Assembly: GCF_014395785.1 (NCBI RefSeq) | Contig: NZ_CP060713.1 | Span: 1,392,501 to 1,456,500 of the forward strand | Source: Nocardioides mesophilus | Lineage (GTDB): Bacteria; Actinomycetota; Actinomycetes; Propionibacteriales; Nocardioidaceae | Reading direction: 5' to 3' | Length of the DNA: 64,000 bases | Shown: positions 60,084 through 62,276 of the stretch, piece by piece | Position numbering within the stretch: the stretch's first letter is position 1 | Layout of the letters: every line of letters begins with the position of its first letter | The notes under the pieces: generated by a model | What the model was told of the DNA's origin: nothing | Databases searched by the model: none | What the model saw: only the letters and a program-made list of their open reading frames with translations | Program-made: the position numbers and the translations under genes

Positions 60084-60137
60084 CGCGGTGAGGCCTCCGG
60101 GGGTGACTTGGTGGCGCCTCGCGGCGGTCCTGGGACG

Positions 60138-60689
60138 ATGGCCAGCGTGCTGCCGACTTCGATGCCACGCCTGCAGGGACGCTCGGTCGTTCTGCGCCCT
60201 TTCGAGCCAGCAGATCAGAGCTTGGTCGCATCGGTGGCGTCCGACACGCTGATCCCGCTCATCACGACCGTGCCTCGCGGGGGTGGCCCCGAGGAGGTGG
60301 CTGCGTACATCGAGCGGCAGCAACGGCGCCTCGCTGAGGGGGCTGGCTACTCCTTCGCCATAGCCGACGGCTCGACCGGCGAGGGGGTGGGACAGATCGG
60401 GCTGTGGCTACGCGATGCCGACCAGGGCAGGGCCACGATCGGCTACTGGGTCGCTCCTCACTTCCGACGCCGCGGTTTTGCGCGCGACGCTCTGGCCACC
60501 CTGACGGCCTGAGCGGACGCGTTGGAGGACATCCACCGCGTTCAGCTCTTCGTCGAACCGTGGAACGCCGGTTCCTGGAGAGCCGCGGAGGCCTGCGGCT
60601 ACGACCGCGAAGGGCTTCTGCGTGGCTGGGAACTCGTCGGCGACCAGTACAAGGACATGTACGTCTACAGCCGCGTCAAGGCCATCTGA
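60138..60689 (+). pseudogene. GNAT acetyltransferase (RimJ/RimL-like) with internal stop
   Basis: The first 125 codons read as the N-terminal part of a GNAT acetyltransferase (VVLRPFEPADQSLV, then IGYWVAPHFRRRGFARDAL, the acetyl-CoA loop). A TGA at 60510-60512 stops it after LATLTA; the same frame then continues without further stops for 58 codons with ADALEDIHRVQLFVEPWNAG, CGYDREGLLRGWE and MYVYSRV, the normal C-terminus. Family members usually have Trp here, so TGG to TGA is the simplest explanation. The start at ATG 60138 lacks a strong ribosome site. Confidence 0.85.
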
Positions 60690-60847
60690 CGGCTGTACGA
60701 CGGCCTTCCGGGCTTCTCCCGACGTCGCTGCCCAGGCGCTGCGCCAGGGGGTCCGGGACCGGAGGGGTCGGCACCTGTTTGACCTGCGATACTTCAGCCC
60801 GACACGGGGAAGTCCTTGAGGATCTTTCGGATGAGTCCCCATGTTCC

Positions 60848-60920
60848 GGGCCTCTAGCTCAATTGGCAGAGCAGCGGACTTTTAATCCGCGGGTTGTGGG
60901 TTCGATCCCCACGGGGCCCA
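60848..60920 (+). tRNA. tRNA-Lys (UUU)
   Basis: A full cloverleaf: acceptor GGGCCTC with GGGGCCC, D-arm CTAGCTCAATTGGCAGAGC, anticodon arm GCGGA-CTTTTAA-TCCGC with anticodon TTT, and T-arm GTGGGTTCGATCCCCAC. Discriminator base A at 60920, followed by CC, so CCA is probably added after transcription. The 3' end is repeated beyond the adjoining insertion element. Confidence 0.97.
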
Positions 60921-60927
60921 CCCTGTG
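60909..60927 (+). repeat. Left copy of 19-bp direct repeat (tRNA 3' end)
   Basis: CCACGGGGCCCACCCTGTG overlaps the last 12 bases of the tRNA and recurs exactly at 62258-62276, flanking the insertion element. Either an unusually long target duplication or an attachment-type sequence. Confidence 0.8.
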
Positions 60928-60949
60928 ATCTCTCAAGAGATCGGCGACA

Positions 60950-60976
60950 CCCGGACCCACGATTCGTGGGTCCGGG
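60950..60976. terminator. Strong hairpin just inside the insertion element
   Basis: CCCGGACCCACG pairs perfectly with CGTGGGTCCGGG around a three-base loop, followed on the plus strand by TTTCGTCATTTT. It could end the tRNA-Lys transcript and, from the other side, the transposase message. Confidence 0.75.
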
Positions 60977-60981
60977 TTTCG

Positions 60982-62184
60982 TCATTTTCGGGTGGGTCCT
61001 TTGGGTGCTCCGGTGGCTTGGTAGTTCTTGGTGGGGTCGATGGTGAGCTCGCGGAGGAGTTCGCCGGTGACGGCGTTGACGATCCGGACGTGGAGGTCTT
61101 GGACGAGCAGGATCACGTGGGTTCGGGCTTGGGTTCGGCCGATGCCGATGTGGTGGAGCGTGCCGTTGACGCGCAGGGTGACGCAGCCGGAGTCGTCGAT
61201 GCGGTCGTGGCGGATCCGGTCGTGGGTGTCGGTGTCGCGGCTGGGACCGGGTAGCGCTTTGGGGAGTGAGTTGTAGATCGTGGCGGGGGTGGCTCGCTGC
61301 GGCAGGGAGCGGTGGGGTCGGCGGTGGTTGTACTCGTCGCTGAACTGGTCCAGGAGCCTCTGGAGCTCGGCGATGGTGGCGGGTTGGGCGGGCTGGCCGC
61401 GGAGCCATTTCTTCATGGTCTGTTGGAACCGCTCGACTTTGCCGCAGGTGGTGGGGTGGTTGGGGCGGGAGTTCTTCTGGGCGATGTGGAGCCCTCGGAG
61501 CTCGGCTTCGAGTGAGTTGCGTCCGCCGCGGCCGCCGGCGAAGCGGGTGGTGTAGACCATGCCGTTGTCGGTGAGGGTGGAGGCGGGGATCCCGTGTGCG
61601 GTCAGGGTGTTGCGGAAGGTGGCCAGGACGATCGGCCCGGTGATGCGGGGGTGGGCGCTGATGTGCAGGGCGTAGCGGGAGCAGTCGTCGAGCCAGCTGA
61701 TGATCTCGACATCGCGGCCGGGTTGGCCGGTGGCGGGGGTGAGTCGGTAGTGGGTGAAGTCCGATTGCCAGGTCTCGTTCGGCATGGCTGCCTGGAACCG
61801 GATGTAGGAGGCCTTGGGACGCTTCTTCGGCTCGGGGACCACCAGCCCGGCGCGGGTGAGGTAGCGGCTGATCGTGGCCAGAGACACGGTCACCTGGTGG
61901 TGCTGGGCCAGGTGCCAGGCGATGGTGTCCGGTCCGGCGTCCAGGCCGGCGGCGGACAGCTTCTCGCGCAGCTCGATGATCAGGTCGACGGTCGCTCGGG
62001 GTAGTGCGGTGGGGTTGGTCTTCGGTCGGCGGGACCGGGGCTCGAACGCGGCCTCGCCTTCGGCCTCGTAGCGGGCCTTGAGCTTGTAGACCCAGGCCCG
62101 GCTCACGCCGTATCGGGTGGCGACCTCCGCCGGTCTCTGGTGGTCAACGAACAGGGCGGTCAGGACCAGGCGCGCCTTCGACAT
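60982..62184 (-). CDS. IS481-family transposase
   Basis: A 400-residue DDE transposase. The N-terminus has a helix-turn-helix (AEVATRYGVSRAWVYKLKAR) and the core domain has the triad in WQSDFTHY, TLTDNGMVYTT and GKVERFQQTMKKW. The Tyr-rich end region (EYNHRRPHRSLPQRATP) is typical of the rve/IS481 group. A C-terminal beta domain (GTLHHIGIGRTQARTHV) is also usual. Frame intact, so the element may be active. Upstream, the frame stays open as an artefact opposite the sulfatase gene. Confidence 0.93.
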   Translation of the reverse strand: MSKARLVLTALFVDHQRPAEVATRYGVSRAWVYKLKARYEAEGEAAFEPRSRRPKTNPTALPRATVDLIIELREKLSAAGLDAGPDTIAWHLAQHHQVTVSLATISRYLTRAGLVVPEPKKRPKASYIRFQAAMPNETWQSDFTHYRLTPATGQPGRDVEIISWLDDCSRYALHISAHPRITGPIVLATFRNTLTAHGIPASTLTDNGMVYTTRFAGGRGGRNSLEAELRGLHIAQKNSRPNHPTTCGKVERFQQTMKKWLRGQPAQPATIAELQRLLDQFSDEYNHRRPHRSLPQRATPATIYNSLPKALPGPSRDTDTHDRIRHDRIDDSGCVTLRVNGTLHHIGIGRTQARTHVILLVQDLHVRIVNAVTGELLRELTIDPTKNYQATGAPKGPTRK

Positions 62185-62257
62185 GGCTGAGCATCGCCAC
62201 GAGACAGGTGTCGCCGATGTCTTGAGAGATGTGTCGCCGATGTCCTGATGGAACACA

Positions 62258-62276
62258 CCACGGGGCCCACCCTGTG
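62258..62276 (+). repeat. Right copy of 19-bp direct repeat
   Basis: Exact match to 60909-60927. The sequence before it does not resemble the tRNA, so only the 3' end is duplicated. Bases 62277-62562 beyond it hold no gene I can support; GTGAGGAGAG near 62544 is the ribosome site of the sulfatase. Confidence 0.8.

Follow-up and report, generated by a model that had tools for sequence, protein, structure and literature searches.

An IS481-family insertion sequence clade positioned behind the T-loop sequence of tRNA genes in Actinomycetota

Results

An insertion sequence lies directly behind an intact tRNA-Lys gene

The window, the whole 64,000-nucleotide stretch of the Nocardioides mesophilus genome analysed here, carries an insertion sequence (IS) that begins 3 nt past an intact tRNA-Lys gene and is bracketed by two copies of a short repeat (Table 1). 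A GNAT acetyltransferase-like frame left of the tRNA gene (60108-60690) is broken near 60510 by a TGA in frame and probably represents a pseudogene.

A sequence-only reading of this DNA had described an IS481-type element next to a whole tRNA-Lys, with a 19-bp repeat immediately outside the element. The 19-mer, CCACGGGGCCCACCCTGTG, is found exactly where it had been placed, at 60909-60927 and 62258-62276, with no further match at up to three mismatches in the window and no two matches in any of the shuffled sequences (0/100); the tRNA is whole according to both ARAGORN and Rfam RF00005. The repeat outside the element proved to be shorter. With its ends set by comparing other copies, the IS begins TGTGATCTC and finishes GGAACACA, and the 19-mer consists of a 15-bp target-site duplication plus TGTG, which is the IS tip at the left and native sequence at the right, because CCCTGTG comes after tRNA-Lys in the same-genus genome G006. 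We therefore rejected a 19-bp duplication, which this comparison of IS tip and native flank cut to 15 bp.

The empty site is represented in a second genome of the genus, G001: tRNA-Lys there runs straight into the homologous right flank, and the 3′ end occurs once. The alignment scores 39, and none of 500 shuffles scored above 35. The second 19-mer is absent from this empty site. Flanking-gene synteny in G001 was not found by tblastn, and the empty site therefore rests on the tRNA and about 50 bp of flank.

Table 1. Features of the insertion sequence and its tRNA target, in window coordinates
Feature	Position	Strand	Remarks
tRNA-Lys(ttt)	60848-60922 (ARAGORN); 60848-60920 (Rfam RF00005, 69.5 bits)	+	Intact; insertion target
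T-loop landmark GGTTCGATCC	60899-60908	+	Consensus of relatives CGNRGGTTCRAATC; duplication begins at next base; from junction alignment/profile of 96 relatives
Duplication copy 1, CCACGGGGCCCACCC	60909-60923	+	3′ strand of T stem, acceptor 3′ strand, A73, 3 nt
IS481-family IS	60924-62257	-	1,334 bp; TGT...ACA ends; three identical genome copies
Left (tRNA-side) inverted repeat TGTGATCTCTCAAGAGATCGGCGACACC	60924-60951	+	24 nt, 96% complementary to 62207-62230
Hairpin	60945-60981		Lies between the IS tip and the stop codon of the transposase; resembles a terminator, behind the tRNA
Transposase, 400 aa	60982-62184	-	Convergent with tRNA; HTH + HTH + RNase H-like DDE core + C-terminal beta barrel (predicted fold)
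Right end	62201-62257		Two subterminal 23-bp repeats (62201-62223, 62224-62246) and ACA tip
Duplication copy 2	62258-62272	+	Followed by native chromosomal TGTG (62273-62276)

The element encodes a single IS481-family transposase

The element comprises one 400-aa open reading frame and about 130 bp of other DNA, and the placement of a single frame between terminal inverted repeats with TGT...ACA ends is a feature of IS481. The transposase passes the NCBIfam model for the family (NF033577) at 234.1 bits against a cut-off of 224, in keeping with the earlier family assignment, and its Pfam matches are rve and helix-turn-helix (HTH) domains only. The DDE triad in its RNase H-like core (D142, D206, E251) is invariant across 43 aligned transposases. 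An AlphaFold2 model (pLDDT 84, pTM 0.59), from an alignment with one row from a plasmid record left out, predicts two N-terminal helix-turn-helix units, the RNase H-like core and a C-terminal beta barrel; the modelled core aligns structurally with retroviral integrases (for 7ouf_B, Z about 20 and rmsd 1.9 over 162 residues) as well as with IstA and TnsB, which have the same domain order. IS481 target duplications in ISfinder range from 4 to 15 bp; the duplication of the window copy and the 14-17 bp seen across its clade are at or slightly above the top of that range. The element is very probably an autonomous IS481-family IS belonging to a clade specialised for tRNA 3′ ends.

Three identical copies occupy three different tRNA 3′ ends

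The 4.49-Mb home genome holds three copies of the IS, identical over 1,334 bp. All share one orientation, each has its own 15-16 bp duplication, and they follow the 3′ ends of three different tRNAs (Lys, Thr, Pro). Copy 2 comes after GGTTCGATTC and then CGACAGGCGGCTCCA, within a duplicate of the 3′ 44 bp of tRNA-Thr(cgt); copy 3 comes after GGTTCAAATC and then CTGTCAGCCCGACCGA, within a duplicate of the 3′ 41 bp of tRNA-Pro(ggg). The intact tRNA-Thr and tRNA-Pro genes lie 39 kb and 26 kb upstream of these copies, a tyrosine integrase gene (Pfam PF00589) is found about 100 bp behind tRNA-Pro, and a putative relaxase-like ORF of 1,235 aa, read from the sequence, adjoins the Thr copy. Given the duplicated tRNA ends, the integrase and the relaxase-like ORF, we assign copies 2 and 3 to attR sites of integrated islands; a target therefore needs no more than about 40 bp of tRNA sequence.

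The islands themselves measure ~39 kb at tRNA-Thr(cgt) (G000:C1:2198457-2237604; L247, L248), with an IS110-like ORF at L247:4011-5348, and ~26 kb at tRNA-Pro(ggg) (G000:C1:4117931-4144174; L249, L250). Outside annotated tRNAs, tRNA 3′-end-like fragments CGCAGGTTCAAATC at G000:C1:4119759 and G000:C1:3048858 are likely att remnants, and the former, 1.8 kb from tRNA-Pro, suggests nested integrations.

Relatives across Actinomycetota share the tRNA position

A genome-contig scan returned 80 relatives at 46-76% identity, in Nocardioides, Kribbella, Janibacter, Actinoplanes, Microbispora, Isoptericola, Mycobacterium, Acidimicrobiia and other hosts, and whole-genome searches returned more. The set analysed comprises 99 non-duplicate loci with the transposase 3′ end at ≥43% amino-acid identity; since the scan yielding most of them was pattern-based and many share ancestry, counts are of loci, not independent events. 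An intact tRNA abuts the element at 71/99 loci, spanning 23 anticodon types, and a tRNA 3′ fragment or look-alike, with the T-loop motif but no ARAGORN-accepted tRNA, at 24/99; the four at neither are explained by a contig end, by rearrangements and, in one case, by an aberrant tip at a T-loop. Ser tRNAs predominate (18), followed by Arg (15), Pro (13), Met (cat; 9) and Leu (6), with two each for Lys, Ala, Tyr, Val and Thr. In every case with an abutting tRNA, the transposase and the tRNA are convergent. A chance model that generously counts any tRNA up to 110 bp away on the right strand puts such a neighbour at p about 0.001 per copy, as opposed to the 71/99 seen. The duplication is 15 bp long at 26 loci, 16 bp at 16, 17 bp at two and 14 bp at one; at about half of the loci the second copy could not be found, owing to contig ends, truncations and decay. 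No relative was confirmed in viral contigs and phage records, and plasmids gave one at ≥50% identity, at a tRNA 3′ fragment of an Arthrobacter megaplasmid.

The sequence-only reading had raised the idea of a transposon with tRNA preference. With 3/3 home copies and 95/99 relatives at a tRNA T-arm or T-loop motif, and with the flanks of other copies carrying long repeats at tRNA ends (14-17 bp where a second copy was found), this idea has strong support.

The duplication starts at a fixed T-loop landmark

The duplication starts directly after GGTTCRANTC in the T-loop. Over 96 junctions the sequence ahead of it is CGNRGGTTCRAATC, the next base being the first of the duplication, and the IS tip lies 15-16 bp past the motif in 90/96. 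GTTC is fixed in 96/96 aligned junctions because GTTCR was the search key, and new information therefore lies in the neighbouring bases: the flanking G, A58, T60 and C61, none demanded by the search, stand at 0.96-0.98. Junction frequencies are G49 0.96, G52 0.96, A58 0.98, A59 0.77, T60 0.96 and C61 0.97, compared with G49 0.68, G52 0.90, A58 1.00, A59 0.35, T60 0.74 and C61 1.00 in a background of 31 distinct tRNA genes from one genome, the home genome, a set with no Ser or Leu genes. The longer pattern CGnnGGTTCRARTC occurs at 65/96 junctions as against 9/31 home tRNAs (Fisher p = 0.0003), which agrees with the bias to Arg, Pro and fMet tRNAs.

The home genome contains 12 matches to CGNRGGTTCRAATC, nine of them in tRNA genes and the other three in tRNA 3′ fragments, so the motif alone would steer the element to tRNAs; the window copy uses the less common variant GGTTCGATCC. 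Non-tRNA sites retain GGTTCGAATG (L010), GGTTCAAGT (L080), GGTTCGAATC (L093) and GTTCGG (L038) in the expected position; judged by eye, none of them has a T stem that pairs. Because these sites keep GTTCR, and because two home copies sit in attR with about 40 bp of tRNA, we conclude that the landmark is the DNA sequence of the T arm.

A hairpin marks the left end

Past the left tip lies a strong hairpin, of at least 8 bp in 77/96 relatives. It may stand in for the terminator from which the tRNA has been separated, a role that we word conditionally because a T-rich tail follows in just 25/96, a count that is low partly since segments ended at the transposase end. The hairpin arms carry [AG]GGTTCR, which resembles the tRNA T arm, in 48/96 elements against 1.9 in shuffles, a comparison that is a rough guide only, the elements being related; the window element has GTGGGTCCGG. 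We also considered GGTTCA in the right tip of many relatives as target mimicry, and dropped it as the window element is without GGTTCA there.

Further IS481 lineages lie at tRNA genes

In a tree of 112 IS481 transposases, the tRNA label and the converging orientation are confined to one clade of 74, and none of the nearest outgroups (L131, L205, L011, L127) lies at a tRNA. One of these, L127 (from G448), 41% identical, has a 12-bp repeat without the T-loop motif, and perhaps represents the state preceding tRNA targeting, or its loss. A second IS481 clade at about 30% identity (L140, L018, L188, L189, L198, L199, L200, L206, L209, L210) uses the same landmark in the opposite orientation, with the opposite end behind tRNAs and the tip 31-33 nt past GGTTC; its duplication, where found, is 16 bp, shifted, and starts in the acceptor strand. 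Two mutually related, distant (26-28%) IS481 elements, L157:1322-2420 and L158:1410-2493, the latter with a 9-bp repeat AGTGCCCCC, lie at tRNA-Ser and tRNA-Arg 3′ ends and are possibly a third tRNA-targeting lineage.

Discussion

Position, orientation and duplication are conserved across the clade, and we propose that a single transposase would bind the asymmetric IS ends and dock on the T arm of any tRNA gene, at DNA that reads approximately CGNRGGTTCRAATC. One IS end would be joined to the strand directly past the T-loop sequence, the second some 15 bp farther downstream, and gap repair would double the 15-16 bp coding for the 3′ T stem, the acceptor 3′ strand and about 3 nt; the tRNA gene would stay whole because the upstream duplication copy completes the tRNA. 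The IS would always be oriented with its transposase pointing at the tRNA, which may be explained by its unequal ends, with one site at the left and two repeats at the right, by analogy with what has been argued for sigma-A promoter-targeting elements (PMC3942029). The element would spread in this way without breaking tRNA genes, apparently by reading the T-loop sequence common to all of them.

We infer that the transposase itself reads the T arm, without a host factor or RNA guide, because the element has no other genes, its off-targets share sequence only, and its preferences extend to single bases. The transposase might instead be attracted indirectly, by a host factor on tRNA genes, by active tRNA transcription or by the tRNA, in which case the T-loop match would only follow from how tRNAs are built. 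Transcription of tRNA genes is high, intact tRNAs make up most sites, and a tRNA-gene-bound host protein or a tRNA transcript could contribute; however, the attR sites of two home copies hold just 41-44 bp from a tRNA 3′ end, other relatives occupy 3′ fragments or sites outside tRNAs that retain GTTCR, and there is base-level preference inside the T arm, so that we consider indirect targeting unlikely.

Integrase islands habitually duplicate a tRNA 3′ end, and such islands are present at the home tRNA-Thr and tRNA-Pro, so the 19-bp repeat could conceivably be the att core of a lost tyrosine-integrase island at which the IS arrived by chance. We give this almost no credence, as the IS inverted repeats directly abut the repeat, 14-17 bp repeats in the same register are found around 45 related elements at different tRNAs, and the empty site is single-copy. 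For the window copy an integrase relic was rejected, there being only the IS between the repeats, with no integrase gene or cargo; the earlier suggestion of an IS inside island remains thus fails here and is right in part for copies 2 and 3, in attR at tRNA-Thr and tRNA-Pro.

RNA-guided or accessory-protein targeting, as in the CRISPR-associated or TniQ-bearing Tn7-like transposons that use tRNA att sites via guides or TniQ (PMC11406308) and have TGT/ACA ends in common with IS481, is scarcely believable for an element with no room for a CRISPR array, TnsC or TniQ, in which Rfam found no RNA family, its only hit being the neighbouring tRNA, and whose identical copies use unlike tRNAs in one genome, where a single guide could fit only the T arm. 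We accordingly rejected a Tn7-like or CRISPR-associated transposon (no TnsC/TniQ, Cas effector or guide; one 400-aa ORF in 1,334 bp), and likewise a casposon (no Cas1-type integrase; Pfam rve and HTH domains only).

Direct reading by the transposase can be joined with the other lineages and the hairpin into one broader account. One small transposase would directly read the universal T arm, making a single-protein element with many safe sites per genome; IS481 may have gained the trait at least twice, perhaps three times, with differing registers and orientations; and the T-loop-like motif, found in the left-end hairpin of 48/96 elements, may be read by the same domain as the target. Taken together, we offer this account tentatively, as plausible but somewhat short of an even chance.

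The prevailing view of bacterial insertion sequences is of disrupters whose choice of target is random or loose. An IS clade that is widespread and lies behind tRNA genes without harming them is a simple analogue, working with one protein, of retrotransposons that target tRNAs, of casposons and of CRISPR-guided transposons. It accounts for part of the mobile-element clutter behind actinobacterial tRNAs and also cautions that not every tRNA 3′-end repeat is an integrase att site. Such an IS also offers a single protein of natural origin from which to develop oriented insertion at many conserved sites, and its base-level rules make the recognition question directly testable. We found no report of a tRNA-targeted IS481 in the openly readable literature searched, and with ISfinder and subscription papers outside that search the novelty is provisional.

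Within the family, ISLxc2 of Leifsonia targets NCTAGN (PMC2516522) and an IS481 element of P. fluorescens SBW25 targets REP sequences with a 4-bp duplication (PMC11708052). The tRNA-associated IS shares with IS481 the single DDE transposase, TGT/ACA ends and inverted repeats, and differs in its tRNA T-arm target and 15-16 bp duplication. Other DDE elements also insert at a set distance from a conserved motif of the host and in one orientation to it, namely ISLre2/TnGBS at sigma-A promoters and ISAjo2/IS1202 at dif sites (PMC3942029, PMC10132070); they differ in transposase family, landmark and duplication length. Type V-K and I-B/I-D CASTs and other Tn7-like elements at tRNA genes use the same safe sites and a related DDE fold (PMC11406308), but work through crRNA or TniQ plus TnsC, whereas the tRNA-associated IS has one protein. 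The nearest working analogue is the casposon of Aciduliprofundum boonei, whose casposase inserts at the tRNA-Pro 3′ end with a 14-15 bp duplication and recognises a T-loop-like TCAAATC upstream (PMC6614799), and which thus resembles our element in its tRNA 3′ end, duplication length and T-loop-like motif. The casposon is large, has its own polymerase, and in the cited work (PMC6614799) is described at one tRNA; its casposase is a Cas1-fold enzyme, a Cas1 homologue unrelated to the IS481 transposase, and its motif lies 8 bp upstream of the duplication, whereas in the IS481 clade the motif adjoins it.
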